The notes beneath the pieces are model-generated. The model saw nothing but the letters and a program-made list of their open reading frames with translations. It was not told the DNA's origin and made no database searches. Below are positions 18,484 to 57,916 of a DNA stretch of 64,000 bases, in pieces. This stretch comes from Syntrophus sp. (in: bacteria) (lineage in GTDB: Bacteria > Desulfobacterota > Syntrophorhabdia > Syntrophorhabdales > Syntrophorhabdaceae). Made by a program: the position numbers and the translations under genes. The stretch is from NCBI GenBank assembly GCA_013824645.1, contig PNOF01000001.1, positions 1 to 64,000 of the forward strand, given 5' to 3'. Every line of letters begins with the position of its first letter. Positions within the stretch are counted from its first letter, which is position 1.

Positions 18484-20292
18484 TTATGTGTTGTCTTCCA
18501 CCTGCACTGCATTATCTTCGGTAAACCATTGTTTTAAAAGAGTGGAGCGCTCAATTAAGAGCTGGAGTTCGTTGAGTCGTTTTTCGAGTCCTCCCTGCTC
18601 CTTGTTTAACTGTTTATCGAGTAACAGCGCCCCTTCATCCTTTTGGCTTGCCCTTAATTGAAGGATCTGTTTGTCGTCAGCATAAATGCCGGCATAGGGG
18701 TGGACGAAATAGTTGATCCTCTCATAAAGAGAACTGCCAAGTCCCTTTATGGTATTCAGTGTTTCTTCCCTATTAGATGAAATGGCCCCCTCAAGAGTGG
18801 GCATATCAAGACGTAATAAATTGTTTTTCTCGATGGATAAGCCTATCATCTGGGCCTTCTGAAATTCTTCGTATTCAAATATAATTTTTTTCACAGCGGC
18901 TTGAACGACAGGCCCTATTCCTGCATCCCGCGTTTGCAGCCGAAGCAGGTGCAGCTTTTCTGATATTAATTCCGGCTCTCCGCCTGCCAGAGCATCAATG
19001 GTAACTTCATCAACCGCTGAGTCACCATCTAAAAGAGCATTCACGCGATCAACAAAGAGCTCAAGTCTTTTTAGGATCACATCATTGTCAACAGGAAGAA
19101 AAGAGTTGTTTGTTATAGGGCTGTTCGTAATAGGGCTTTTTGTTATTTCTTGACCGCCAAAAGCTGTGCCGGAAGCAGGTTCGCCCTGAAACCCCTGAGC
19201 ACTTAACCCATTGGGACTGACAGGTGCCATTTTGTTGTTGTCCTTTGTCGGGTCAATGTGAATTACTATCGCATGTAGTGAATCAACAGGAAAGGACCTC
19301 GTTGCGCCCTCTTGCGCTGTATCCTTTTCCATACCACCAGCAAAAGTACTCAATTTTTCAAAAAACTCCTTATCATTTCCAACACTCCGGTATAGAGCCA
19401 GCAATTTTTGACCATCTATGGCCTTACCTTCTATCCAGGTACCTTCTACCTGGGCAACATCGACCACGTCAGACGCAACCAATGGAAGGGATTGCGACAG
19501 GTCACCTTTTTCTCCCGTTTGCGCCACCATGGATCGGAGGACCTGTCCCTCGAATTGCGCATGGGCTAAATAGGGAAACTTTACAACAAATCCAATCTCA
19601 TCTTCAGAAGCAATATTACCCTTGCCACCCTTTATGGAAACAAGGGCACTTCCCGTTGATATACCTATGTATTTTTTTGCGTTTTCCACTACAGCATCAA
19701 TAAAACCGTTCTTTGCCGTCTCTTGATATACAACACCCCCTGCAACCGGCTCGTCGGTCTTATAGGCAACAAATATTTCCAATGGATTTTCCAGGGCTTC
19801 GCCTTTCTTAGAGATCAATAACACCAGAATGTCGCTTTGAGGCATAGGTGGTTCGGCAAGCTTCAATATGTCAATTTTTGCATTGCCGGTTGTTATCGTA
19901 TCCTCATTGTCTGTCTCATACTTGACGATACTATCCGTAAGATCGCGGGTTATATTTTTGAGTACCTGAAATACCTCTTGTTCAACCCGCCCCAATGCTT
20001 CACTTATTGTATAGGAATCAACATTCAAGATCTGTTCCGGCGAAATGGTAGTCGCCTTCTTTGACAATTCGACATTATTGAAAGAAATAATGCGATATAA
20101 AGCTTCCTCAATTTTCACGACAGGGATACTCCTCCCTTTCAGACTCTCTTTACTATTATCGCACTTATTACAAAAAACTTTACCGCTTCCAGTCCGTATA
20201 AACTCTTTGCACATATATAATAGACAACAATCTTTTGATATATTCCCTGCATGTTTGATACTGTTGTCAATTATCTGACAACGATCTTTCAA
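18484..20292 (-). CDS. Large protein with cysteine-rich head and FliD-like tail
   Basis: 602 residues. The head (about 1-45) has six Cys (5, 22, 23, 28, 41, 44), the last two as CNKC, resembling a metal-binding knuckle. The middle part (about 60-360) is not recognised. A linker repeats SPITN units near residue 395. The last 100 residues resemble the FliD C-terminus: GLGSSLYERINYFVHPYAG, then a coiled coil ending ERSTLLKQWF. The FliD N-terminal D0 start is absent. Start is TTG 20292 with AGGAGAG 13 nt upstream, a weak site; ATG 20214 is possible and would lose part of the Cys head. Function unknown; perhaps a filament-cap relative or an assembly regulator. Confidence 0.65.
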   Translation of the reverse strand: MKDRCQIIDNSIKHAGNISKDCCLLYMCKEFIRTGSGKVFCNKCDNSKESLKGRSIPVVKIEEALYRIISFNNVELSKKATTISPEQILNVDSYTISEALGRVEQEVFQVLKNITRDLTDSIVKYETDNEDTITTGNAKIDILKLAEPPMPQSDILVLLISKKGEALENPLEIFVAYKTDEPVAGGVVYQETAKNGFIDAVVENAKKYIGISTGSALVSIKGGKGNIASEDEIGFVVKFPYLAHAQFEGQVLRSMVAQTGEKGDLSQSLPLVASDVVDVAQVEGTWIEGKAIDGQKLLALYRSVGNDKEFFEKLSTFAGGMEKDTAQEGATRSFPVDSLHAIVIHIDPTKDNNKMAPVSPNGLSAQGFQGEPASGTAFGGQEITKSPITNSPITNNSFLPVDNDVILKRLELFVDRVNALLDGDSAVDEVTIDALAGGEPELISEKLHLLRLQTRDAGIGPVVQAAVKKIIFEYEEFQKAQMIGLSIEKNNLLRLDMPTLEGAISSNREETLNTIKGLGSSLYERINYFVHPYAGIYADDKQILQLRASQKDEGALLLDKQLNKEQGGLEKRLNELQLLIERSTLLKQWFTEDNAVQVEDNT

Positions 20293-20410: not shown

Positions 20411-20426
20411 TGGCATAATGTTTGCA
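20411..20426 (+). promoter_or_regulatory. Sigma-54 promoter, giant glycosyltransferase gene
   Basis: TGGCAT-N5-TTGCA with GG and GC exactly 10 bp apart, the -24/-12 consensus. The predicted start site is near 20437, about 190 bp before the glycosyltransferase ATG. It matches the fliL and flgF boxes, which would place this gene in the flagellar regulon. Confidence 0.6.
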
Positions 20427-20444: not shown

Positions 20445-20588
20445 ATGAATATAGTAGAAGACAAAGACATCAGCAATTATCTCTCAATCATAAAAAAGCA
20501 AGGTCAGACCATGAGCGAAGAAGTTGAAAAAATGTGGACATCACTACCCATGCAAAATAACCAATTATGGGGTATAAGCCTTGAATAA
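20445..20588 (+). CDS. Possible 47-residue leader protein
   Basis: An open frame (MNIVEDKDISNYLSII...) begins 8 nt after the predicted sigma-54 start site and ends 40 bp before the giant gene. It has no Shine-Dalgarno sequence, so it would have to be read as a nearly leaderless message. No family recognised. It may simply be untranslated leader. Confidence 0.25.
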   Translation: MNIVEDKDISNYLSIIKKQGQTMSEEVEKMWTSLPMQNNQLWGISLE

Positions 20589-20628: not shown

Positions 20629-23600
20629 ATGCATCAAAGCTCCTATAATATCATGTCTCAATTCCGCAACTTGGTAACAAAACATTTCCAAGGAAACAAG
20701 GTTAGAATACTTGATGTGGGCAGTCATGGAGTAAACGGGACTTACAAAGAGATATTCACTGATGACAAGTTATATAGCTATACCGGCTTAGATTTGCAGC
20801 CGGGACCTAATGTAGATTATGTACCTTCTGGCCCTTATTGTTGGCCGGAACTGCAAGACGAGTCATTTGATGTGATCATCTCCGGTCAGGCCTTTGAGCA
20901 TATAGAATATCCCTGGCTGATCATCGAAGAAATAAACAGAGTACTCAAAAAAAACGGATTGATCTGCATTGTCGCTCCCTCGCGCGGACCGGAGCATAAA
21001 TATCCTGTTGACTGCTGGCGGTATTATCCTGATGGTTTCCGTGCCCTGGCCAAGTGGGTGCACCTGGAGGTGCTCGAGGCGAAAACATCATGGGGGAAAT
21101 CCGGTTTTAGTGATGGAAGCGATCAATGGGGAGACACATTCTGCATATTATACAAACCGGAAAATCAAGATAAAATTATACAACACGAAAGAAAGGCGAA
21201 AAGTGTTTCTCAAGTTGTCAACCGCAACAATCCTCTAAGGCAGAGCAAGCAGAATTCTTATTATGGTTTTGCGAGACCCGAGGTTGTTGAAGCCATCATT
21301 AAAAATAACCTGCCCACCGGGAAAGTGCTCGAAATTGGATGCGCAGGAGGCGCTACCGGAAAGAATCTGAAAGAAAGGCTGCCGGTGCAGTCTTACGTGG
21401 GGATTGATATTTCACCGGAAGCGGCCGACATTGCGAAAAATTATTTAGATAGGGTAATTGTTGCGAATATAGAAAAAACGGATTTGGCTTCTGAACATGG
21501 GTTGAAACCCGGAGAATTTGACTTGTTGCTGGCATTGGATGTTTTGGAGCATCTCTACGACCCCTGGGATATTCTTGCCGAGTTGTCACATTATGTCAAA
21601 CCAGGCGGTTATGTCGTGGTTTCTTTACCCAACATTCAGAACATAACCATTGTGCAGGGCTTGATAAAGGGAAACTGGCAGTATCAGGATGCCGGAATTC
21701 TTGATGCCACTCATCTACGCTTTTTCACACTTGAAGCATCAATAAAAATGTTCAGCGGGGCCGGGTTAACGATTAAGAGCATCGAACATGTTATTAATCC
21801 GACCCTTGATATAGAGACGGTAAAAGAATCAGGGAATAAATACCAGCAGGGAAATTTGGAAATAGCCAACCTGACCAAAAATGAACTTCTACATTTATTT
21901 ACTTATCAATACATTCTGATCGCTCAAAAAACGTCCTCCACAGAAGTACTAAATACGGCTTCTACAGATAGTACCGCCCCCGGAGGGGATCTTTTATTGC
22001 CCCATTTCAAACAAGAAAATATTGTTCCAGAACTTTCATCCATTATCATTTTAGCCTTCAACGAGCTGGAATACACAAAGAGGTGCGTGAAGAGCATACG
22101 CAAGCATACACCGGAACCTCATGAGATTATCTTTGTTGACAATGGTTCGACGGACGGCACCGTGAAATGGCTGAGTAAGTTAGTGCAAGAAAACGATAAC
22201 TACCAATTAATCGAGAATAAGGAAAACTTAGGCTTTGCAAAAGGCTGTAACCAGGGGATCGAGGCATCTCACGGCGAGTTTATTCTCCTTCTGAACAATG
22301 ATGTCATTCTTGTTGATAAATGGCTTTCCGGGATGCTGGGATGTCTAAACAGCGCTTCTGACGTCGGTATCGTAGGTCCCCTGACCAACAATATCAGCGG
22401 CCCTCAGCAGATCGTCTCAGATGAATACCGATCCGTGGATTATCTGGATAAATACGCGGCACAGTTTCGGAAAAAACACCGTCATCGTCGGATTCCCCTG
22501 AGAAGGATCGTCGGGTTTTGTATGCTCTTCAAACGGGCATTGGCCGAACAGATCGGAATGTTGGATGAGAGCTTCGGCACGGGCAATTTTGAGGATGATG
22601 ATTTCTGCCTGAGAGCTGCACTCAAGGGCTACCGGAACCTCGTCGCCGGAGATGTCTTCATCCACCACTACGGAAGCAGAAGTTTCATTGGCAACAAGAT
22701 AGACTACAGTGCGTCGATATCCGGGAATAGAAAGATCATCGAAGAAAAGTGGACACTCAGCACGTTAAGCCCCGAGGGCAAGAAGTTGGCAGCCCTGAAA
22801 GCCACAGAATTAGCTGACGATCTTAATCAAAAAGGGAAAACAGATCAGGCAATCGGAATGCTTATCGATGGTATTAAAATTACACCGGAGGCCAAGGAAA
22901 TCTATTACGCGCTTGCCAGGATTTTCGTTGAATCAAAGAGATTTGCCGAGGCTTTGGAAGTTGTTGAGTCCATGCCTGAATCGGCGAGGGAAGAACTGAA
23001 AGGGCTTGAATACGCGGGATACGCCAAGGAAGGATTAGGGTTGGATGATGAAGCGGCTACATACACTGACAGGATGTTGTCTCTTGATAAAAAATACCCT
23101 CCGGCTCTGAATTTGAAAGGAGTTTTGGGATATAAGAGAGGGCACAAGGAAACGGCAGCGGATTTTTTTCGGAGGGCTCTGGATTCAGACCCAGGTTATG
23201 GCGAAGCCTATACTAATCTTGGCGTTCTGCAATGGACTGCTGAGAAAAGGGATGAGGCTCTTGATTATCTGAAAAAAGGATTTGTCCTATCCCCAATCGT
23301 GCCGGATACCAGTTCGCTTTATTATTCCGTTGTATCTTCATTGGGCACATATCGTGATGCGGAAAATGTTTTCCGGGAAACCAAGGGATTGTACCCAAAC
23401 AATAAAAATATCACTTTTTTATATATTGACGCCCTGATCCAGCAAGGCAAATTCAGTGTTGCCATGATTGAAATAGAGGACGCTATCGCTTGGTTTGGCC
23501 TTGACGAGGGCATTCTTGCTGCGGCCTTATCGGTTCGCGAGAAGCTTGGCCCCCGGGCTCCAGGGGAAAAAGGCCCAAAAAAAACCACGCTTTCCGTCTG

Positions 23601-26600
23601 CATGATCGTAAAAAATGAAGAAAAACACCTTGTAAAATGTTTGAAAAGCGTCCGTGACATTGTGGATGAAATGATTGTGGTGGATACGGGATCTACCGAC
23701 AGAACAAGAGATATGGCCGTGGCTTTTGGGGCACAGGTTTTTGATTTTAAATGGAATGACGATTTTTCCGCTGCGAGAAACCTTTCCTTATCCAAGGCAA
23801 TCGGCGATTGGATTTTGATACTCGACGCCGATGAGGTTATCTCCAGTCTCGATCATAAGCGTCTCCTGAAAACAATCGACATAGGAAAACAACGGCCTGT
23901 CGCTTTTGATATTGTTACCCGGAACTATCTTGTAAAATCGGGGTCCGCAGGGTGGACCGGAAATGATGGGGCATATCCGCAAGAGGAAAAGGGCGTCGGT
24001 TGGTTTGGAAGCAATAAAGTAAGGCTGTTCAAGAACAACAACCTTGTTCGGTTTGAAAATCCCGTGCATGAGCTTATCGAAGCATCCCTGAATAGGGCCG
24101 GGATCCCTATCGAAAAATGCACCATCCCCATCCATCATTACGGCAGACTCGATCACGATAAACTCCTGGCAAAAGGCCTGGATTACTGCCTGCTGGGAAG
24201 AAAAAAATTGGAAGAACGTGGCGGCGGCGACTATGTAGCCATTCGGGAACTGGCCGTTCAGGCCACGGAGATCGGCAAGTTTGACGAAGCCATTGACCTG
24301 TGGCAGCAAGCATTAGCTTTGCGTGCGGACGATGTAGAAGCGCTGTTTAATTTGGCGTACGACTACATGTGCATCGGAAAATATCAGGAGGCATTACAGG
24401 CAGCAAAGAGGTCTGTCGAACTTTCACCGGGGACAAAAGATGCTGTATTGAACTATGCCTTGTGCGAAATGCTCATGGGTAATGTGCTGAAAACCACGGC
24501 TTTACTTGAGGAATCGGTATCAAGCGAAAATGAAAATCCTACTCTGACACTTCCTGAACATACAGAGGGCTTCACATCAATCATCATCCCAGTATCTGAA
24601 TTCAACGATAACATAAGAAAATGCCTTGAGTCAATCAATGCCAATGCTGCCGAACCATACGAAATTATCCTTGTCAAAAACGGTTCGTTAAAAGTGCCTG
24701 CGTGGCTGAAAAAATACACTGCCATGGATACTCATTGCAAGATAATAGGCATTGCAAAAAATACCGGCTTTTCCGGGATGTGCAACGAAGGATTGCAAAA
24801 AGCCATCGGGCAATATGTACTGATTCTCGACGGGAATGTTATCATGCTTGAGGGGTCCCTTGAGAAAATGCGTAAGTGCATGGATCAAGACCCGGAGCAC
24901 GGAATAATCGTCCCTATGTCAAATAACGCAATCGGTCCCCAGCAGATTCCCAAGACCCAGCAGATGTCTTGCAGGGATTTTGAGGAATACGCGAGGACTT
25001 TTTGCGAACGCAACCAGCATCGTTATATCATTACCTTTGAAATTGACTGTACATGTACGCTTATCAAAAAAACATTTATCAATACAATCGGTCTCTTGAA
25101 CGAGCAGATCGAGACCCCCTATTTTGCAATCAACGATTACCGTATACGGGCACTCATGGAAGGACAGCAGGCCGTGATTGCGGGCAATATCTGCGTCTAC
25201 CTGAACCAAAGCGGCACAAGAAATAAAGGTTCAGACAAAGCATTTCATGAAAAATGGGATATATTTAACCCCCATAGTGCAACAGGGGGAAAACTTTCAC
25301 CTTTTGTTGCCATAAAAAATGCCCGTGACCATCACAGCAAGGGCCTTCTCGATGAATCGGTGCAGGCCATTATGGAAGGAATAAAGTACACACCTGAAGA
25401 AGAGGAACTCTATTACTGTCTTGCTGAAATCTTGTTAGAGGAAAAACAATACGAAGAAGCTATAGATGCGATACGAGCGATGCCGAGAACAGGACAAGAC
25501 AAAGCAGGGGCGCTGGAGATACTCGGATATTGCAATTATTATCTGGGTCATCTGGAGGAGGCTGATAATTATGCTGATCGTGCGTTTTCCCTTTCCGGCA
25601 ATTCAGCAAAGGCGCTTAACCTCAAGGGCTTAATGGCACTCAAGCAGAAAGATCAAAAGAACGCTGAGGCATTGTTTCAGCAGGCAGTCGCTATGAATCC
25701 CTGTTTCGCAGACCCCTATATGAATATGGGGATAATGAAATGGCACGATAGTGAACAGAAAGAAGCATTGGACCTCATTGAAAAAGGTTTTATCCTTTCA
25801 CCGGAGACCGGGGACTTCTCAACAACGTACAATTCCGGCATCACTTCTTTAAATGAGCTTTCAAGGGCGGAAAGGGTATTTATGGAAGCCTGCGGGCTCT
25901 TTCCTAAGAATAGAAGGCTCTCATTTCTTTTCATCGGTGTACTCTTGCAGCAGGAGAAATACGGCGAGGCAATGGAAGAGATAGTGAAGGCCATACTGGC
26001 CTTTGGGGTAGACGATGAGACCCTCTCTGCCGCACTCACGGTGAGAGAAAAGATAGGCCCTCTCGTCATTGACGGAGGCGGCAAGAAAAGAAACGCCCTT
26101 TCGGTCTGTATGATCGTAAAGAATGAAGAAACGTATATGGCACGATGTATGGCAAGCCTCACACCCGTTGCCGATGAGATCATTGTCGTCGATACGGGGT
26201 CAACAGACAGAACAAGGGGCATTGCCATTGCTTTCGGGGCACAGATCTTTGATTTTCCCTGGACAGATGATTTCTCTGAGGCCAGGAATGTGTCGCTCGA
26301 AAAGGCAAAGGGTGACTGGATTCTCGTTCATGATGCTGACGAGGTGCTTTCACCGCTTGATTATGCAGAGTTTAAGAAACTATTGCAGCAAAAACATTCC
26401 AAACCATTTGCATATGATATTATCACAAGAAACTACATAATGGAGCCGGCCATCGACGGTTGGACAGCAAACGTTGGGGAATACCACGAAGAGGAATCTG
26501 GAAGCGGTTGGTTTCCGAGCAATAAAGTGCGGCTTTTCACCAATGATCGGCGTATTCTATTCTGCAATACCGTCCACGAAATACTGGAGCCTTCAATCAA

Positions 26601-27306
26601 ACAGGCAGGTATAGAAATCAAGCCCTGCAGTATTCCCATACATCATTACGGTAAACTCCCCTCCGAGACAAACAAGAAGAAAGGTGACGTTTATTACCAA
26701 TTAGGCAAAAGAAAAGTTGAACTCATGGGAAACATTCCCGCTGCCCATCGCGAGCTAGCTATTCAGGCAGAGGAACTAGGGAAACACGAGGAAGCCATAG
26801 AACACTGGCAGGCATATGCCCGGGCCATACCGAAAAATGCGCTGCCCTATTTTAATATGGCCAGTATCTATCTGGAGATGGGGCAGTTTGAGCTGGCCCT
26901 CGATGCCGCAAAAAAGGCCTGTGAGATCGATCCGCACGCAAAGGAAACAATACTCACCCATGCCACAGTCTCCCTGTGTGCCGGTGATGCATATGAAGCG
27001 GCAACAAATCTTGAAAAACTGCTTGAGACGGTTCACAACTATCCTCCCGCCCAAGTTGCTTTGGGCATGGCTTATTGTATTACAGGAAGAAAGGAGCAAG
27101 GAATCACATTAATGACTAAAATGAGGGAAAAGGGGTATAACTATGACCCTGCGCTCTACTCAATAGCAAAAAAATTAATCTCTGCTGGCAGAATTGAACA
27201 GGCGATGTCTTTGCTGGAGAGTATGATGAAGTGGAATTCCACAAATCAAGATACTATTGCTTTATTCGATGAGTGCAAAAGAGCGGTGCTCAAAGAAAAT
27301 ACATAA
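20629..27306 (+). CDS. Giant bifunctional methyltransferase-glycosyltransferase-TPR protein, probably flagellin-modifying
   Basis: 2225 residues, start supported by AAGGAG 7 nt upstream. Order: class I SAM methyltransferase (about 1-185; ILDVGSHGVNG); second methyltransferase (205-440; VLEIGCAGGATG); GT2 domain A1 (466-735; VDNGSTDGT, LLLNNDV); TPRs (740-970); GT2 domain B1 (985-1200; VDTGSTDRT, LDADE); TPRs; GT2-like A2 (1312-1570); TPRs; GT2 domain B2 (1822-2035; HDADE); TPRs to the end. A-TPR-B-TPR is therefore duplicated with an offset of about 840 residues. A2 is decayed: DNGSTDGT became KNGSLKVPA and LNNDV became LDGNV, so it probably does not catalyse. Cytosolic, no signal or membrane span. 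It faces the flagellin operon and has a sigma-54 type promoter, suggesting O-glycosylation of flagellin with methylated sugars; this role is inferred. Confidence 0.85.
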   Translation: MHQSSYNIMSQFRNLVTKHFQGNKVRILDVGSHGVNGTYKEIFTDDKLYSYTGLDLQPGPNVDYVPSGPYCWPELQDESFDVIISGQAFEHIEYPWLIIEEINRVLKKNGLICIVAPSRGPEHKYPVDCWRYYPDGFRALAKWVHLEVLEAKTSWGKSGFSDGSDQWGDTFCILYKPENQDKIIQHERKAKSVSQVVNRNNPLRQSKQNSYYGFARPEVVEAIIKNNLPTGKVLEIGCAGGATGKNLKERLPVQSYVGIDISPEAADIAKNYLDRVIVANIEKTDLASEHGLKPGEFDLLLALDVLEHLYDPWDILAELSHYVKPGGYVVVSLPNIQNITIVQGLIKGNWQYQDAGILDATHLRFFTLEASIKMFSGAGLTIKSIEHVINPTLDIETVKESGNKYQQGNLEIANLTKNELLHLFTYQYILIAQKTSSTEVLNTASTDSTAPGGDLLLPHFKQENIVPELSSIIILAFNELEYTKRCVKSIRKHTPEPHEIIFVDNGSTDGTVKWLSKLVQENDNYQLIENKENLGFAKGCNQGIEASHGEFILLLNNDVILVDKWLSGMLGCLNSASDVGIVGPLTNNISGPQQIVSDEYRSVDYLDKYAAQFRKKHRHRRIPLRRIVGFCMLFKRALAEQIGMLDESFGTGNFEDDDFCLRAALKGYRNLVAGDVFIHHYGSRSFIGNKIDYSASISGNRKIIEEKWTLSTLSPEGKKLAALKATELADDLNQKGKTDQAIGMLIDGIKITPEAKEIYYALARIFVESKRFAEALEVVESMPESAREELKGLEYAGYAKEGLGLDDEAATYTDRMLSLDKKYPPALNLKGVLGYKRGHKETAADFFRRALDSDPGYGEAYTNLGVLQWTAEKRDEALDYLKKGFVLSPIVPDTSSLYYSVVSSLGTYRDAENVFRETKGLYPNNKNITFLYIDALIQQGKFSVAMIEIEDAIAWFGLDEGILAAALSVREKLGPRAPGEKGPKKTTLSVCMIVKNEEKHLVKCLKSVRDIVDEMIVVDTGSTDRTRDMAVAFGAQVFDFKWNDDFSAARNLSLSKAIGDWILILDADEVISSLDHKRLLKTIDIGKQRPVAFDIVTRNYLVKSGSAGWTGNDGAYPQEEKGVGWFGSNKVRLFKNNNLVRFENPVHELIEASLNRAGIPIEKCTIPIHHYGRLDHDKLLAKGLDYCLLGRKKLEERGGGDYVAIRELAVQATEIGKFDEAIDLWQQALALRADDVEALFNLAYDYMCIGKYQEALQAAKRSVELSPGTKDAVLNYALCEMLMGNVLKTTALLEESVSSENENPTLTLPEHTEGFTSIIIPVSEFNDNIRKCLESINANAAEPYEIILVKNGSLKVPAWLKKYTAMDTHCKIIGIAKNTGFSGMCNEGLQKAIGQYVLILDGNVIMLEGSLEKMRKCMDQDPEHGIIVPMSNNAIGPQQIPKTQQMSCRDFEEYARTFCERNQHRYIITFEIDCTCTLIKKTFINTIGLLNEQIETPYFAINDYRIRALMEGQQAVIAGNICVYLNQSGTRNKGSDKAFHEKWDIFNPHSATGGKLSPFVAIKNARDHHSKGLLDESVQAIMEGIKYTPEEEELYYCLAEILLEEKQYEEAIDAIRAMPRTGQDKAGALEILGYCNYYLGHLEEADNYADRAFSLSGNSAKALNLKGLMALKQKDQKNAEALFQQAVAMNPCFADPYMNMGIMKWHDSEQKEALDLIEKGFILSPETGDFSTTYNSGITSLNELSRAERVFMEACGLFPKNRRLSFLFIGVLLQQEKYGEAMEEIVKAILAFGVDDETLSAALTVREKIGPLVIDGGGKKRNALSVCMIVKNEETYMARCMASLTPVADEIIVVDTGSTDRTRGIAIAFGAQIFDFPWTDDFSEARNVSLEKAKGDWILVHDADEVLSPLDYAEFKKLLQQKHSKPFAYDIITRNYIMEPAIDGWTANVGEYHEEESGSGWFPSNKVRLFTNDRRILFCNTVHEILEPSIKQAGIEIKPCSIPIHHYGKLPSETNKKKGDVYYQLGKRKVELMGNIPAAHRELAIQAEELGKHEEAIEHWQAYARAIPKNALPYFNMASIYLEMGQFELALDAAKKACEIDPHAKETILTHATVSLCAGDAYEAATNLEKLLETVHNYPPAQVALGMAYCITGRKEQGITLMTKMREKGYNYDPALYSIAKKLISAGRIEQAMSLLESMMKWNSTNQDTIALFDECKRAVLKENT

Positions 27307-27339: not shown

Positions 27340-27717
27340 TTAGCCGGGTGACCCCCGAAGTCCGGCAGCCAAGTTGATATTGATGTTAATGATGAGATCG
27401 AGCTTATCGGGGAACGGATTGCTCATCACTTCAATAATCCGTTTATCAATGATGAGGCTAAGCTTCAAAATATCTGCCTTTAATTGTGCCAGCATGGGGT
27501 TATCTTCTCTTGCAAGTTCACCCTGGAATATGGACCAGATTTTCTGGTTGAATGTCAATGCCTCATCAAGCCTTCTAAAATGACCTTCTTCATTCCATTG
27601 TTCCTTGCACTCTTTCAACAAATTAGCTGCCTTTGTCAGAACAGATGCTTCCAGGTCTCTGCCTGATGTGGTTGACTTTATTGTCTTTTTATACGCGTTG
27701 AGCCCTGGTCCTGGCAT
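27340..27717 (-). CDS. flaF: Flagellar regulator FlaF
   Basis: 125 residues matching FlaF: NAYKKTIKSTTSGRDLEASVL at the start, then LDEALTFNQKIWSIFQGEL, then KLDLIININ and LAAGLRG at the end. In Caulobacter, FlaF is needed for flagellin synthesis or secretion and opposes FlbT. A good ribosome site (AGGAGGC) lies before ATG 27717. It overlaps flbT by 29 bp and converges on the giant gene only 33 bp away. Confidence 0.9.
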   Translation of the reverse strand: MPGPGLNAYKKTIKSTTSGRDLEASVLTKAANLLKECKEQWNEEGHFRRLDEALTFNQKIWSIFQGELAREDNPMLAQLKADILKLSLIIDKRIIEVMSNPFPDKLDLIINININLAAGLRGSPG

Positions 27718-28096
27718 ATTTCATAGCCTCCTCTTCATATTTGATCAATCTCTTTGCCAGCTTAAGGGCTGGATAATATCTGTTATTTAAGATATGTTCA
27801 CTGATTTCCCCGAGCATTTCTGTAGTGCTTGGCGCTGCTTCAACAACATCCTTGACAAGCGACCAGTAAAGGTTATGTTTTTCGACAAGGTCCTTGCTGT
27901 CGATATACATAAGCTGGATGATAAAATAGACCCTTTTGCAAGGGGTCACAGCTTCTTTTTCGCGGAGTATGTCTTTCTGGCGCAATATGGGTACATTATT
28001 CTCTACGATAAATTCACATTTTGTATTACCATTCGTTATCACTGCACCGTCAATAATCAAACGCTCATGTGGCTTCAGGTTTATCTTTAGGGCCAT
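27689..28096 (-). CDS. flbT: Flagellin mRNA regulator FlbT
   Basis: 135 residues from ATG 28096 (GAGG 5 nt upstream). MALKINLKPHERLIIDGAVI is the FlbT start; LREKEAVTPCKRVYFIIQLMY follows. In Caulobacter, FlbT binds the 5' leader of flagellin mRNA and lowers its stability until the hook is built. Placed after flagellin and before flaF, it suggests the same kind of control here. The in-frame extension up to 28171 overlaps the small upstream gene and is rejected. Confidence 0.9.
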   Translation of the reverse strand: MALKINLKPHERLIIDGAVITNGNTKCEFIVENNVPILRQKDILREKEAVTPCKRVYFIIQLMYIDSKDLVEKHNLYWSLVKDVVEAAPSTTEMLGEISEHILNNRYYPALKLAKRLIKYEEEAMKYARTRAQRV

Positions 28097-28112
28097 ATAA
28101 TGTCCTCTACCG

Positions 28113-28319
28113 TTATTTCTCAGTTTTAAACATACTCTGCGTGACACAGATCGGGAAAAATGGCGGATCATTCGTCTTTGTTGTCCCTTTGATTTCCGGT
28201 TTTGTACTGATAGATACCGTATCCGACGTTTCCAACTGCGGATGGGACTTTTTTTCCGCTATCTTCATATGCATGGTAACCGGTAAAGATATCGTATTCC
28301 CTATCTTATCTACTGTCAT
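28113..28319 (-). CDS. Small unknown protein between flagellin and FlbT
   Basis: 68 residues from ATG 28319, preceded by a strong GAGGAGGTG ribosome site 4 nt away. Sequence MTVDKIGNTISLPVTMHMKIAEKK then a Ser/Thr/Lys-rich tail. No family recognised, no signal or membrane segment. Its clean ribosome site and tight packing (75 bp after flagellin, 16 bp before flbT) argue for a real gene in the flagellin operon. Confidence 0.65.
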   Translation of the reverse strand: MTVDKIGNTISLPVTMHMKIAEKKSHPQLETSDTVSISTKPEIKGTTKTNDPPFFPICVTQSMFKTEK

Positions 28320-28394: not shown

Positions 28395-29552
28395 TTACTG
28401 GAACAATCTCAACACTGACTGCGCAGCCTGAGCTGACATGCTCAATGCCGATGTACTGATTGACTGTCTTGTCTGGAGCATAAGCATATTGGCGCCCTCT
28501 TCGTTAGCGTCTGCCAGGGTCAGATTGGCAGCACCGGTCTGAAGGGTTTCCGCAATGCCTGTAATCCATTCATTCCTGGCACTAACAATAGCCAGGTTAC
28601 TGGACAGGTCCGAAGATTTGGTTCTCAGCGTCTCAAGACCGGCTTCCAGTTTATCAATACTGGCCTGGAGCGTTGCTTCGCTTGTCGATGTCAATGTTGC
28701 ATCCAATGCCAAACCAGACCTGCTGCCGTCGAAAGAAGCGACCGCCAGGTTGTGGCTATTGCCGAAACGGACAGTCATATCGTTTGCAGTGGTGGATGCA
28801 CCTCCGAGAAGGTTTTTGCCTTTGTAAAAGGCGTCGCTCTTCAAGTCGTCAAGCTGGTTCATCAAGGTGCTGTACTGGGCTAGTTTTGAAGTCAGGTCAC
28901 CCGTGGCAGCTACAGCCGATTCTGAATATGCGAGGCTCAACGCAGCTGAGTACTCAATGTCAGTTGCACCCATTGTAGCGCCAGCAGTAGTAGCAGTGAC
29001 GGTAAGAGCGCTACCGTTTACTGAGGCTGACATGGGACGCGTTTCTGTGGCTGCGTTAATTGCGGTTGCAAGGGCTGCTGCAATGCCTGTCGTTGTTCCA
29101 CTATCGATTGAGAAAGTGGTAGCCGTAGTCGCAGTACCAGCCACTGCCGTAAAGGCGGTCCCACCGATGCTAATCGTAGTGCCGGCAGTTATGCTCGTGG
29201 CTGCATTGATTGTCAGGGTCTGGCTTGCAGATCCTGTACCTGCTGCAAGAGCGCTCTTTGCGGACTCGGCAACAGCCTTTGCAGATTCAATGAGCTTTGT
29301 TATGCCGGTGATCGCTGTATCTGCCGCCTTAATGGTCTGGATTGCCTCTGAAATACCATCCTTAAAGCTGAGGAGATCGTTTGCACGGTTATTATGAGCC
29401 AGGGCGGTAAAAAAGTTTGAGGGGTTATCAAGTGCCGAGTTGACTTTCTTGCCTGTGGCCAGCCTTTGCTGGGTCATTTCCTGTAAAACGTTCGTTGACT
29501 GTAATGCCAATAGGTTCTGTCTCATGCCAGTTGTTAAAGTTATTGAACTCAT
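28395..29552 (-). CDS. fliC: Flagellin
   Basis: 385 residues. Conserved D0/D1 N-terminus (LQSTNVLQEMTQQRLATGKKVNSALDNP) and C-terminus (SISTSALSMSAQAAQSVLRLF). The centre (about 105-215) is Ala/Thr-rich and looks like a flagellin IN-type insertion (QTLTINAA, TAINAAT, LTVTATTAG). Short flagellin of the kind handled by FlaF/FlbT systems. The ribosome site AGGAG lies 7 nt before the ATG, after a leader of about 115 nt from a sigma-28 promoter. Many surface Ser/Thr in the variable core are plausible glycosylation sites for the neighbouring giant enzyme (inference). Confidence 0.95.
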   Translation of the reverse strand: MSSITLTTGMRQNLLALQSTNVLQEMTQQRLATGKKVNSALDNPSNFFTALAHNNRANDLLSFKDGISEAIQTIKAADTAITGITKLIESAKAVAESAKSALAAGTGSASQTLTINAATSITAGTTISIGGTAFTAVAGTATTATTFSIDSGTTTGIAAALATAINAATETRPMSASVNGSALTVTATTAGATMGATDIEYSAALSLAYSESAVAATGDLTSKLAQYSTLMNQLDDLKSDAFYKGKNLLGGASTTANDMTVRFGNSHNLAVASFDGSRSGLALDATLTSTSEATLQASIDKLEAGLETLRTKSSDLSSNLAIVSARNEWITGIAETLQTGAANLTLADANEEGANMLMLQTRQSISTSALSMSAQAAQSVLRLFQ

Positions 29553-34321: not shown

Positions 34322-35707
34322 TCATATCACTTCCAGATCCGCATGGAGCGCGCCGGAGGCTTTGATGGTCTGGAGGATGGTAATAATATCCCTCGTGGAA
34401 ACCCCTGTCGCATTTAATGCCTGGACCAATTCCCTGATCGATACACCGCCTTCCATCATATACCACCGTCCCTTTTCTTCTTCCACTCTAATAGTGGTAT
34501 CAGGTGTTACCACCGTTTCGCCTTTTGCAAAGGGCAGAGGCTGGCTTACCTTCTGGTCCTCTTTGATCTGAATACTCAGATTTCCATGAGAGATGGCAAC
34601 CGTTGAAATTTTTACGTTTTCACCGATAACAACGGTGCCTGTTTTTTCGTCAACCACAATTCGTGCAAGGAGATCGGGCTTGACATCAAGATTTTCCACT
34701 ATAGAGAGAAATTTAACCGGATTGGCCTTCATATCACCAGGCAGGTTGACAGTAACTGTCCCGCCGTCTTTCGCATATGAGGAACCCGCAAATATATCGT
34801 TAATACGTTCGGCAACCCTTCTCGCTGTCGTAAAATCGGGGTCCTTCAGTGCAATCATTATCACATCTGTCCGTAAACTTTCATAGGATATTTCCCGTTC
34901 TATCGAAGCTCCATTGGCAATTCTGCCCACAGTAGGATGGTTCTTCTGAACAGTAGCGCCCTGGCCGCTTGCCAGATAACCGCCGGTCACGATAGGCCCC
35001 TGGGCAATTGCATAGGTTTCCCCATCGGCTCCCCTTAACTGAGTGAGCATAAGGACCCCGCCTTCAAGACTCTTTGCATCACCTATAGATGATACGGTCA
35101 CATCTATCTTATTGCCGACCTTCGCAAAAGGAGGCAGATTAGCTGTAACCATTACCCCTGCTATGTTATTGACTTTTGTCGCCCTGGGGTCCACCTTTAT
35201 ACCGAGGGTTTCAAGCATATTGGCAAGACTCTGGTTTGTAAAAAGGGTATTTGTTTTGTCGCCTGTTCCATTGAGTCCTACGATAAGACCATATCCGATA
35301 AGCTGATTGGTCCTCACTCCGTTTATATAGCCCAGTTCTTTTATCCGTGCCGCATATGCAGGATGAATGAGAGCGCCTGCACAGAACATCAAAACAAAAA
35401 ATATAACAGGAAAGACCCTGGCGATGATCTTTGATTTTGTCTTCTGATTCAGCGTGAACCGCTTAATGGCGTTTTGTATCTCCCCGCCTTCTTCATCTCT
35501 CATCTTCTGCCTTTCAATTTCCCTCTTCCCTCTTCCCTCTTCCCTCTTCCCTCTTCCCTCTTCCCTCTTCCCTCTTCCCTCTTCCCTCTTCCCTCTTCCC
35601 TCTACATCCTGTGCTTCACCTTCTATGCTCTCCTGCAGCACAACATATCGGCACTCGCCGCTTGTCTTTGGTTCGCCTTTCTTAATTCTTAATTCTCCAT
35701 TTTTCAT
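34322..35707 (-). CDS. flgI: Flagellar P-ring protein FlgI with repeat-bearing 5' extension
   Basis: The mature P-ring protein is canonical: ARIKELGYINGVRTNQLIG, GLNGTGDKT, ending in IITILQTIKASGALHADLEV. It is preceded by a signal peptide (VIFFVLMFCAGALIHPAYA). The ATG at 35707 follows the flgH stop by 10 nt with GAGGG 7 nt upstream, so translation probably begins there. This gives 461 residues, about 90 more than usual, including four EGRGKRE heptapeptides encoded by 12 units of a 7-bp repeat. An ATG at 35503, just past the repeat, gives a 393-residue precursor of more normal size but has only a weak AAAGG. In either case the repeat controls frame or spacing at the start of flgI. Confidence 0.9.
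   Translation of the reverse strand: MKNGELRIKKGEPKTSGECRYVVLQESIEGEAQDVEGRGKREEGRGKREEGRGKREEGRGKREIERQKMRDEEGGEIQNAIKRFTLNQKTKSKIIARVFPVIFFVLMFCAGALIHPAYAARIKELGYINGVRTNQLIGYGLIVGLNGTGDKTNTLFTNQSLANMLETLGIKVDPRATKVNNIAGVMVTANLPPFAKVGNKIDVTVSSIGDAKSLEGGVLMLTQLRGADGETYAIAQGPIVTGGYLASGQGATVQKNHPTVGRIANGASIEREISYESLRTDVIMIALKDPDFTTARRVAERINDIFAGSSYAKDGGTVTVNLPGDMKANPVKFLSIVENLDVKPDLLARIVVDEKTGTVVIGENVKISTVAISHGNLSIQIKEDQKVSQPLPFAKGETVVTPDTTIRVEEEKGRWYMMEGGVSIRELVQALNATGVSTRDIITILQTIKASGALHADLEVI
35519..35602. repeat. 12 perfect copies of TTCCCTC
   Basis: An 84-bp uninterrupted tandem array of a 7-bp unit (GAGGGAA on the flgI coding strand). It lies between the two possible flgI starts. Loss or gain of one unit shifts the frame when reading from 35707. 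Confidence 0.95.
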
Positions 35708-36431: not shown

Positions 36432-37226
36432 CTAAAAATCTACCGTTACAGCATTGTTCGCAGTAACACGTCCTGTAATTTCCCTGCCGGAAGATATATT
36501 TTTTACCCTTACCATATCTCCCATCCTGCCTTTATCAACCATTTTTCCTTTCAACTGTATGAGAAGCCTTTTGTTCTCGGCAATAATGTTTACGACTTCC
36601 CCCCTCTGGACGACCACAGGCTCCTCCAGCATCTGATTTGTCATAATGGTATTGGTTGGGACATCCCTTTTCAGGACTTTTCCGATCACGTCTTCAATGG
36701 AAACCGGGTATTCAGCGCCCCTCCCATTCATGTATGTTTCTTTGACAAAAATATCTCTCTTGCCAAGGATAGTATCTTTTTTACCGGCCTCTTTGAGCAC
36801 AAAGAGTTTTCTCTTTGTAAATATCCTGAAGGGAACCTGAACATTTTTGCTCCTGCCGGCGCCGGTATCTAATTCAACCGTGCAGATACCATCGCCATTT
36901 ACATCAGGAATCTTTATGAAGGTTATATTGTTCACCTTAACCTTTTCTTTCAATTTATTTGGCATACTATTCAACCGCACCTGTACGTCATCGCCCGGAT
37001 TGTACACCTCTTTGACAAACTGGATAATCTTTGCTTCGGTGGCGGAATATTCGGCGGCGTGAGCAACGGAAGGTGAAAGGTGAAAGGTGAAAGGTGAAAG
37101 GTAAAGGATGCATACCAGCAGGGTACAAACTAAAGGGCGATATCCTATAGCCTTTTCAGATTCTCGTACCTTGTACCTTGTACCTTGTACCTTTAACCTT
37201 TTACCTTGTACCTTGCACCTTATCAC
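36432..37226 (-). CDS. flgA: P-ring assembly chaperone FlgA with repeats in its signal region
   Basis: 264 residues. The mature part matches FlgA/SAF: an IFTKRKLFVLKEAGKKD strand, DVPTNTIMTNQML, VVVQRGEVVNIIAENKRLL, and GRMGDMVRVKNISSGREITG. FlgA guides FlgI polymerisation in the periplasm. The start is GTG 37226, with GAGGAG 6 nt upstream and overlapping the flgG stop. No other in-frame start occurs before the signal peptide. Two heptanucleotide arrays lie in this coding segment: the first encodes the basic KVQG-rich N-region, the second encodes the LSPFTFHLSPSV part of the signal peptide. A change of one unit would disrupt the mature protein. Confidence 0.9.
   Translation of the reverse strand: MIRCKVQGKRLKVQGTRYKVRESEKAIGYRPLVCTLLVCILYLSPFTFHLSPSVAHAAEYSATEAKIIQFVKEVYNPGDDVQVRLNSMPNKLKEKVKVNNITFIKIPDVNGDGICTVELDTGAGRSKNVQVPFRIFTKRKLFVLKEAGKKDTILGKRDIFVKETYMNGRGAEYPVSIEDVIGKVLKRDVPTNTIMTNQMLEEPVVVQRGEVVNIIAENKRLLIQLKGKMVDKGRMGDMVRVKNISSGREITGRVTANNAVTVDF
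37070..37104. repeat. AAGGTGA heptamer array in flgA signal peptide
   Basis: Four perfect AAGGTGA units (37070-37097) and one with a single change. On the coding strand it reads as TCACCTT units and encodes the end of the hydrophobic core and the cleavage region of the FlgA signal peptide. Confidence 0.9.
37164..37219. repeat. TTGTACC heptamer array at the flgA start
   Basis: Eight 7-bp units, four of them exact TTGTACC (three consecutive at 37171-37191). It begins 7 bp after the GTG start of flgA, within the translated N-region. Confidence 0.88.
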
Positions 37227-38026: not shown

Positions 38027-38758
38027 CTAAAACTTTCCTAATTCTACCAGTTTGGCGTTCATATCACTGAACATCTGGTCAACCTTCGTGTAACACTCAA
38101 AAGCACGCATCGTATGAATCATCTCCACCATTTCCCGAAAAATATTTACGTTGGAACCTTCGTATGCACCCTGGCGAATGGCATATAGATCCGGAACAAT
38201 CTCGGGTTCAGCCTTGTTTTCATTGGCAAAAAGGCTCTTTCCCACCGGCTTCAACCCCCTCTTATCCTTGAAATCTACAATCTTTACCTTGTCCACAAGA
38301 TCTTTTCCAAGAAAGATGGAACCGTCAGTTTCTATGAGCACCTCTTTCCCGTCCGTTGTGTCAATGGTAATATCTCCGCCGCTTCCCTGTACAGGATCTC
38401 CGTTCATCGTCACAAGTCTGTTACTCTTATCGACGGTAAACTGACCGTTCCTCGTGTATAAATTCCCGTCTTTGCCCTGGATAACAAAGTACCCGTCGCC
38501 AACAATAGCCATATCGAAGGTGGCCCCGCTATCGACGATAGGTGCGTCAGAAAAGTCGATGAAGGTGTCATAAATACCGACATAGGCATTCTTCAGCTGC
38601 CCGCCGTCACCGGCTGCCTGCCCTGCAGTAGAAACCATACTGAATACCGGCTTCACGGCCTTGTACCCTGCAGTCAACGAATTGGCAATATTATTTGAGA
38701 TAATATCAAGTTTTTTCTCGTTTACGAATTTACCTGCTACGGTTACATAAAAGCTCAT
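38027..38758 (-). CDS. flgF: Proximal rod protein FlgF
   Basis: 243 residues, rod family: MSFYVTVAGKFVNEKKLDIISNN at the start, FDMAIVGDGYFVIQGKDGN in the centre, YEGSNVNIFREMVEMIHTMRAFE at the end. Slightly divergent from FlgG and placed just before it, which favours FlgF. No Shine-Dalgarno sequence precedes the ATG, and a sigma-54 box ends only 12 bp upstream, so the message may be nearly leaderless. Confidence 0.9.
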   Translation of the reverse strand: MSFYVTVAGKFVNEKKLDIISNNIANSLTAGYKAVKPVFSMVSTAGQAAGDGGQLKNAYVGIYDTFIDFSDAPIVDSGATFDMAIVGDGYFVIQGKDGNLYTRNGQFTVDKSNRLVTMNGDPVQGSGGDITIDTTDGKEVLIETDGSIFLGKDLVDKVKIVDFKDKRGLKPVGKSLFANENKAEPEIVPDLYAIRQGAYEGSNVNIFREMVEMIHTMRAFECYTKVDQMFSDMNAKLVELGKF

Positions 38759-38794: not shown

Positions 38795-38921
38795 TAAATG
38801 GTAAATCGTGAATGGTCAAACCCGTGTCGACCAGATGATAAACCTGCTCCTTTACTATCACTGATAGCGATCAGCCTGTTTTACCGCTTACGATTTGCAA
38901 TTTACGATTTACGATTTACGA
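38795..38921. repeat. Inverted pair of TAAATCG-type heptamer arrays
   Basis: Three units TAAATGG-TAAATCG-TGAATGG read on the plus strand (38795-38815). Five units of the same family read on the minus strand (38887-38921, three of them exact TTTACGA on plus). The pair can fold back. A G9-A7 homopolymer pair follows at 38936-38951. Confidence 0.75.
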
Positions 38922-38971
38922 TTCGCGGGTTCTAAGGGGGGGGGAAAAAAATTCCTACATAGGCAAAATTT

Positions 38972-57304: not shown

Positions 57305-57916
57305 TCACTGTATAATGATGTCGGTTATATAAACCGCTCTCAATTCTTCTTCGTCCTTAAAGAGTGTCTTTAAGCTTGCCTGGACTTCACTTTTTATGGC
57401 GCTTCTCTGGCTCACATCCATGAGCGCCTCAGGGGCCTTTGCTCCTAATATTGACAATACTTTGTCCCTTATGACGGGCACCATTTTCTTTGCCTCTTCC
57501 ATGACCTTCGGGTCTTTCAGCTCTATCCCCAGGGTCACCTTTGCATACTTGGCCTGATTGCCGGACATATTAAACACAAAAGGTTCCAGCGCCAGAATAG
57601 GACCCAGGAGTTCCTTTTTCTTCTGCTCCTTGGCTTCTTTCTGCTCGCCCCCTTCCTGCTGTTCGCCTTCTGGCGGCTTTTTTCCAAAATACTTCTGCAT
57701 GATTTTGTTGCTGAAGGACATGATTTTACTGCTGAAGAAATAGTATCCCGCTCCCCCGCCTCCAAGAAAAATAACGATAAGGAGGAGGAACAGAATCAAC
57801 TTAATTTTGCTCTTTTTTTTGCCTTCTTCCGGCTGTTCAGAGGCCTCTTCCTTTTGTTTTTGTTTTTTTTCTTCCGGTTGTTTTTTTTCTTCCGGTTGCT
57901 TTTTCTCTTCAGCCAT
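57305..57916 (-). CDS. fliL: Basal body protein FliL
   Basis: 203 residues. The cytoplasmic N-terminus carries EEKKQP repeats (an 18-bp in-frame DNA repeat). One membrane span (IKLILFLLLIVIFLGGGGAGY) precedes a Glu/Lys-rich linker and the periplasmic FliL domain (LEPFVFNMSGNQAKYAKVTLGI ... LKTLFKDEEELRAVYITDIIIQ). It rings the stator and aids motor torque. GGAGGAA precedes the ATG. First gene of the 18-gene operon. Confidence 0.92.
   Translation of the reverse strand: MAEEKKQPEEKKQPEEKKQKQKEEASEQPEEGKKKSKIKLILFLLLIVIFLGGGGAGYYFFSSKIMSFSNKIMQKYFGKKPPEGEQQEGGEQKEAKEQKKKELLGPILALEPFVFNMSGNQAKYAKVTLGIELKDPKVMEEAKKMVPVIRDKVLSILGAKAPEALMDVSQRSAIKSEVQASLKTLFKDEEELRAVYITDIIIQ

Follow-up and report, generated by a model that had tools for sequence, protein, structure and literature searches.

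Transferases of flagellin that combine glycosyltransferase (GT) domains with tetratricopeptide repeats (TPRs), as well as fusions of GT and methyltransferase (MTase) domains, are already known. GmaR of Listeria comprises GT, TPR and antirepressor domains (PMC9638930). FlmG of Caulobacter binds flagellins through its TPR in a FlaF/FlbT-type system (PMC7591256), and Maf-1 likewise binds flagellin through TPR, according to work cited in PMC13317340. Type B flagellin glycosylation of C. difficile (GT1, GT2-MTase, GT3) is stepwise, with N-acetylglucosamine (GlcNAc) followed by further sugars and methylation, the latter step being proposed for a PF08241 MTase domain fused to GT2 (PMC5207246); many enterobacterial flagellin-island GT41s also have MTase domains (PMC4875605). 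In the glycosylation of serine-rich repeat adhesins, GtfB contacts the acceptor and GtfA transfers the sugar (PMC6973325). Here we analyse a 64,000-nucleotide stretch of a Syntrophus sp. genome (contig PNOF01000001.1, positions 1 to 64,000, hereafter the window), in which a single gene (20629-27306) combines GT, TPR and MTase domains; no antirepressor domain was recognised in the protein, although no search was aimed at one. An earlier note on this DNA regarded its MTase-GT fusion as unusual, a view that the C. difficile GT2 and enterobacterial GT41 precedents do not support; the added interest of the gene lies in a conserved dead GT domain and in module shuffling. Our literature search found no description of flagellin glycosylation in this lineage.

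The gene is a single uninterrupted open reading frame (ORF) of 2225 codons without internal stop, starting with ATG and immediately preceded by a Shine-Dalgarno-like AAAGGAGA. Pfam detects two class I MTases (aa 1-205 and 206-455), four Glycos_transf_2 stretches (PF00535, E=2e-93) and TPRs behind every GT. The ORF check and Pfam thus recover exactly the order given in the earlier note, MTase-MTase-GT2-TPR-GT2-TPR-GT2-TPR-GT2-TPR in one frame. Since the two internal halves (aa 463-1285 and 1286-2225) can be aligned over 820 aa with 41% identity, the underlying repeat is [GT type A, TPR, GT type B, TPR], present twice, the GTs following each other as A-B-A*-B. A and B denote here two GT2 subtypes, both of GT-A fold, and not the GT-A and GT-B folds. 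The domains are as follows.

20629-27306, forward strand: whole ORF, predicted 2225-aa multidomain flagellin glycosylation enzyme
20629-21243, forward strand: MT1, class I S-adenosylmethionine-dependent MTase, aa 1-205 (Pfam Methyltransf_11/23; weak 3cc8 match)
21244-21993, forward strand: MT2, class I S-adenosylmethionine-dependent MTase, aa 206-455 (Pfam; 3cc8, E=8e-37)
22015-22794, forward strand: first GT, A1, intact GT2-family GT-A domain, aa 463-722 (key residues 10/10)
22795-23583, forward strand: TPR block a, aa 723-985 (Pfam)
23584-24213, forward strand: second GT, B1, GmaR/SunS-type GT2 domain, aa 986-1195, DADE intact (GmaR 22ao, E=2e-30)
24214-24528, forward strand: TPR block b, aa 1196-1300 (Pfam and half-to-half alignment)
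24565-25272, forward strand: third GT, A2*, candidate pseudo-glycosyltransferase, aa 1313-1548 (GT-A fold kept; key residues 1/10)
25273-26082, forward strand: TPR block c, aa 1549-1818 (Pfam and predicted structure)
26083-26718, forward strand: fourth GT, B2, GmaR/SunS-type GT2 domain, aa 1819-2030, DADE intact (GmaR, E=3.7e-28; SunS, Z=23.9)
26719-27303, forward strand: TPR block d, aa 2031-2225, reaching the C-terminus (Pfam and predicted structure)

The two GT subtypes have different kin. A1 and A2* match GT2 enzymes of a generic kind, and the best match of B1 and B2 among solved chains is GmaR, the Listeria flagellin O-GlcNAc transferase (for B2, E=3.7e-28, the next chain being SunS with 3.5e-9). 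These B-type domains (GTB) are GmaR homologues whose DxD and His motifs are intact and which are directly followed by a TPR; of 52 GTB domains compared, 48 have all nine motif residues (9/9). MT1 has counterparts of 62-80% identity in three related loci (L004, L001 and L081).

The third GT domain has lost its active site. We tallied ten donor-site and catalytic positions of the A domains: all 22 intact A domains, including A1 of the window, carry 9-10 of the key residues, compared with one in A2* and 1-6 in the equivalent domain of all 13 other loci of the family. In the donor site, K1350 and K1355 stand where A1 has D504 and D509; the DxD-like triplet reads D1401/G1402/N1403 instead of N556/N557/D558, the ED base A1500/I1501 instead of E655/D656, and the HH pair Y1524/L1525 instead of H679/H680. 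The positions lost from A2* hold the nucleotide, the metal and the base in comparable GT-A enzymes. Thus, although four GT2 domains are present as the earlier note claimed, they are not four working GTs. Degradation of the A domain is also found in L149, L142, L144 and L145, as well as in the Nitrospirota loci L014, L016, L018 and L024. The AlphaFold2 model containing A2* (predicted local distance difference test, pLDDT, 89, mostly >84 across A2*; predicted template modelling score 0.80) has a GT-A fold (model residues 27-282), with Z of about 20 to N-acetylgalactosaminyltransferases (GalNAc-Ts), WrtF and PcManGT; these comparisons were made with VIA-align, as Foldseek with the entire C-terminal half returned mostly TPR solenoids.

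The degraded domain is nevertheless maintained. The A* frame is intact in 15 proteins and A* always precedes a catalytic GTB. Its ratio of nonsynonymous to synonymous substitution rates (dN/dS) is 0.20-0.47 where saturation permits an estimate. A2* retains fold positions and the equivalents of N541, P584, N587, Q593, D658 and R662; about 27 positions of A* are still conserved, mostly for the fold and possibly on the acceptor side, and one residue, R1461, is newly conserved (93%). The simplest reading of these sequences is that A2* is a retained pseudoenzyme, catalytically degraded and under purifying selection. By analogy with GtfB, its role is most likely acceptor binding. No described precedent for a pseudo-glycosyltransferase in flagellin glycosylation was found in a literature search of partial coverage.

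The genomic setting ties the gene to the flagellum. It converges on flaF, flbT and flagellin, which lie on the opposite strand, with a stop-to-stop gap to flaF of 33 bp.

27340-27717, reverse strand: flaF, flagellin export chaperone/regulator, convergent neighbour (Pfam FlaF, 9.7e-29)
27689-28171, reverse strand: flbT (Pfam FlbT, 1e-43)
28395-29552, reverse strand: flagellin, the only one found in the genome apart from FlgL

The middle of this flagellin is rich in Ser/Thr (35 among residues 101-200). Beyond it lie flgL, flgK and the remainder of an extensive locus for flagella and chemotaxis, and motAB is found on the other flank of the GT-MTase gene. The gene therefore does adjoin the flagellin operon, as the earlier note stated, tail to tail with it and outside the operon itself.

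This association recurs in relatives. Of 39 family genomes compared, 15 are FlaF-positive, and 14 of these have the C-terminal GTB-TPR module; it was found in no FlaF-negative genome (0 of 24). Because family genomes are related, a naive exact test would overstate this evidence; however, FlaF and the module are also jointly absent within two genera, g5 (G005, G182) and g8 (G022), and these co-absences are additional separate events supporting the link. When GTB loci were fetched by GT protein similarity alone, 19 of the 20 GTB genes with sufficient downstream sequence converged on flbT and/or flaF and flagellin, and these loci span Geobacteraceae, Desulfobacterales, Syntrophaceae and one Nitrospirae metagenome-assembled genome (MAG); the single deviating locus is L014. 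Starting from FlaF instead, a convergent GTB gene occupies the flaF site in 13 of the 14 other FlaF-positive family genomes and in 5 of 10 genomes drawn across the phylum. Both close GTB copies of the Syntrophus genome lie within the gene itself. In one relative (G021, L137), genes for a dTDP-sugar epimerase, an NAD-dependent epimerase/dehydratase, a transketolase-like protein, a GHMP kinase and a nucleotidyltransferase are found just upstream of the GT gene. Separately, the FlaF-negative genome G015 encodes a 2226-aa all-GTA protein (L153, 8403-15083) beside motAB-pilZ and response-regulator genes, so that long GT proteins at flagellar loci are a wider habit of the family.

At the flaF site, relatives share a constant C-terminal A-TPR-B-TPR core and differ in their N-terminal part, which can be GT10-like, Glyco_trans_1-like or made of extra GT2 units, in proteins of up to ~2900 aa. 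The nearest relatives of the window gene change along its length: L081/L001/L006 for MT1-MT2-A1-TPRa, L131 for B1-TPRb, L133/L135 for A2*-TPRc and L149 for B2-TPRd, the changes falling at TPR-GT junctions. Trees agree, as B1 groups with L131 (100/100), A1 with L081/L001 (100/99), B2 with L149 within a family clade and A2* within a family pseudo-A clade (100/99). Recent tandem duplication is ruled out, since A1 and A2*, like B1 and B2, belong to different clades and have different nearest relatives. These differing relatives and concordant trees indicate module exchange and a mosaic gene, for which the best explanation from the sequences is that complete GT-TPR units were swapped at a hypervariable site next to flaF. 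Locus L081 also contains an out-of-context fragment (325-762) resembling the end of B1, and the gene downstream of it is cut short behind its GTB; both are traces of module recombination. Of the one-protein assembly line proposed in the earlier note, the fused enzyme thus stands, and shuffled GT-TPR modules fit better than a fixed line. Its flagellin-directed role in glycosylation and methylation, with TPRs, is likewise supported by the co-occurrence with FlaF, the convergent synteny across phyla and the kinship of GTB with GmaR.

Taken together, we consider it probable that the gene encodes a cytoplasmic modular enzyme of flagellin O-glycosylation, with GTB priming, A1 extending, the MTases capping and A2* binding the acceptor. 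One or both GmaR-like GTB domains would attach the first sugar to Ser/Thr of the flagellin mid-region; this would probably be GlcNAc, because of the kinship with GmaR and the analogy to C. difficile GT1. The intact A1 would add a further sugar, and MT1 and MT2 would methylate the glycan. The TPR blocks may bind flagellin, as the earlier note proposed and as those of FlmG and Maf-1 do, or keep the domains aligned with one another. A2*, itself no longer transferring sugar, would most likely act with TPR block c to bind the acceptor on behalf of the catalytic GTB beside it. All modification would precede FlaF/FlbT-assisted export of flagellin. A broader proposal, which we advance tentatively and with more doubt than conviction, is that a conserved pseudo-glycosyltransferase fused immediately ahead of a GmaR-like transferase has become the part of a shuffled GT-TPR assembly enzyme that reads flagellin or the glycan, so that exchange of GT-TPR units near flaF changes the flagellar glycan from one species to another.

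Several observations weigh against this mechanism. The GTB neighbour is missing in the family genome G007 and in five FlaF-positive genomes of the phylum-wide draw, so the association is strong and not obligatory. GT2-TPR proteins are common away from flagellar loci, and the Nitrospirota locus L014 encodes a long A-B protein and shows no recognisable flagellar genes in the ~10 kb downstream. No nucleotide-sugar genes adjoin the window gene, and the genome encodes a NeuB homologue at another site, which would allow for other surface glycans. Structure prediction of the blocks, which the earlier note had proposed, gave a confident GT-A fold for A2* and models of modest confidence for MT1 and MT2. 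Separately, searches for Maf, a possible competing flagellin transferase, with PF20157 and PF01973 gave no match, and their controls were uninformative.

Some of these points would also suit a protein that assembles cell-surface polysaccharide (O-antigen or capsule) and merely adjoins flagellar genes. Polysaccharide loci typically contain GT2 and class I MTase modules, related proteins with GTA domains only are widespread, L014 lies away from flagellar genes, and another part of the genome has an O-antigen-like locus encoding GT2 proteins (C10). We nevertheless find this explanation improbable, as the module follows FlaF across the family (14/15 versus 0/24), convergence on flbT/flaF and flagellin recurs in several phyla, GTB is nearest to a flagellin transferase and the adjoining genes are flagellar. 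Placement among O-antigen genes, named in the earlier note as the outcome that would speak against a flagellar role, is not the pattern; the one deviating locus, L014, is remote from flagellar genes. A dual role of the GmaR kind, in which the TPR blocks would also control flagellar transcription, is suggested by the three domains of GmaR (PMC9638930), the first two of which GTB-TPR resembles. It seems very improbable, since neither a MogR homologue nor an antirepressor domain was seen (though no search was aimed at either) and TPR block d reaches the C-terminus.

The two remaining alternatives concern the gene itself. It comes from a draft MAG (128 contigs, 88% complete), its nearest relatives differ by segment, and genome G008 has an MT-MT-A1-type gene and a flaF-side gene on separate contigs, as would be expected if the 2225-aa gene were an assembly chimera of MT-MT-A1-B1 and A2*-B2 genes. 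Yet the frame runs uninterrupted through 2225 codons with an even GC content (about 0.42-0.48), and the halves are merely 41% identical in protein, leaving no long shared DNA for a misjoin. Moreover, L001 independently has MT-MT-A-B at the flaF site, B2-TPRd converges on flaF as in relatives, and multi-GT fusions of up to ~2900 aa are normal there; a chimera is thus very unlikely. As for A2*, it could be a decaying, functionless leftover of fusion or duplication: A* is the fastest evolving part of the module, with long tree branches, and its dN/dS exceeds that of the adjoining GTB in measurable pairs. We regard such decay as unlikely, given the frame kept in 15 proteins, the confidently predicted fold, a dN/dS clearly below 1, the conserved positions including R1461, and the constant placement ahead of a catalytic GTB.

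The region upstream of the gene contains two further features.

20411-20426, forward strand: sigma-54-like element TGGCATAATGTTTGCA (GG-N10-GC), two mismatches to TGGCACGNNNNTTGCW
20445-20588, forward strand: 47-aa ORF, probable remnant of a deleted acyltransferase (tblastn, ORF listing)

The earlier note took the box as a flagellar-type sigma-54 promoter. It is present, and plausibly a real promoter element, but its score alone is only weakly above chance and does not make it strong evidence: about 7.6 sites with at most two mismatches to the consensus are expected by chance per window, and three sites at its weighted score are observed against 0.8 expected. Of the two further sites, one precedes ORF 38027-38758 (FlgF/FlgG-type rod protein) and the other ORF 57305-57916. 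The box is not generally conserved 5' of the relatives; in many of these, other genes come directly before.

The 47-aa ORF starts 19 bases past the box, and over its first 18 codons it matches the beginning of the hexapeptide acyltransferase gene that directly precedes the orthologue in L001, L081 and L004 (a Hexapep domain being detected in that of L081). A 17-aa N-terminal stretch of the type M-I-E-D-x-D-I-x-x-Y opens this ORF, the L001 and L081 acyltransferases and two different ORFs of L004 (7400-7618 and 8279 onward), one of which is an acyltransferase. We considered a new small protein or general docking tag and rejected it in favour of a gene remnant, because a motif scan matched few loci, all of acyltransferase type. 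The rest of the genome yielded no close copy of the acyltransferase. Since the remainder of the acyltransferase gene is missing here, this species may have lost acylation of the glycan.

Two observations concern other parts of the window. The divergent neighbour (18484-20292, reverse strand) encodes 602 aa without Pfam match and has weak relatives in the flagellar-locus loci L152, L138 and L139. Tandem arrays of heptamers occur at 35519-35603 (TTCCCTC, 12 perfect copies), 37070-37107 (AAGGTGA), 37166-37221 (GTACCTT) and 38888-38923 (TTACGAT), close to the starts of flgI, flgA and FlgF/FlgG-type rod genes; as seven is no multiple of three, frame or spacing could vary.

If the proposed mechanism is true, one protein initiates, extends and methylates a flagellin glycan and probably also recognises the acceptor. 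A2* beside the catalytic B2 would then offer a mutable test of what a dead glycosyltransferase domain does, and the locus a test of whether module swapping alters the sugar coat of the filament. Such experiments are feasible, as an intact-A version is present in cultured Geobacteraceae. Cultured relatives with the orthologue are Citrifermentans bremense, Geomonas sp. Red32, G. propionica and Geotalea sp. SG265.

Among known systems, GmaR, a flagellin O-GlcNAc transferase and MogR antirepressor, is closest to GTB in sequence and shares the GT-then-TPR order and the flagellar locus, but the window protein joins two GTB, A-type GTs and MTases in one chain. The C. difficile type B system likewise has flagellin-locus GT2 enzymes and a PF08241 MTase with a PF00535 GT in one protein; its enzymes are encoded by separate genes, whereas those of the window gene are joined in one chain, present twice and in part dead. 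The peptide S-glycosyltransferases SunS and ThuS are structural neighbours of GTB (Z 20-24) but are single-GT proteins with a glycocin substrate. GtfA-GtfB, in which a GT-like acceptor-binding partner stands beside a catalytic one, offers a functional analogy to A2*-B2 without any claim of homology, as these are separate subunits of another GT family. Finally, FlmG is also a flagellin transferase with TPR and GT within a FlaF/FlbT-type flagellar system, but it has an N-terminal TPR and a C-terminal GT of the GT-B superfamily, whereas the window GTs are GT-A/GT2 domains, each followed by a TPR, with MTases in addition. The window protein works like FlmG and is not a member of its family.

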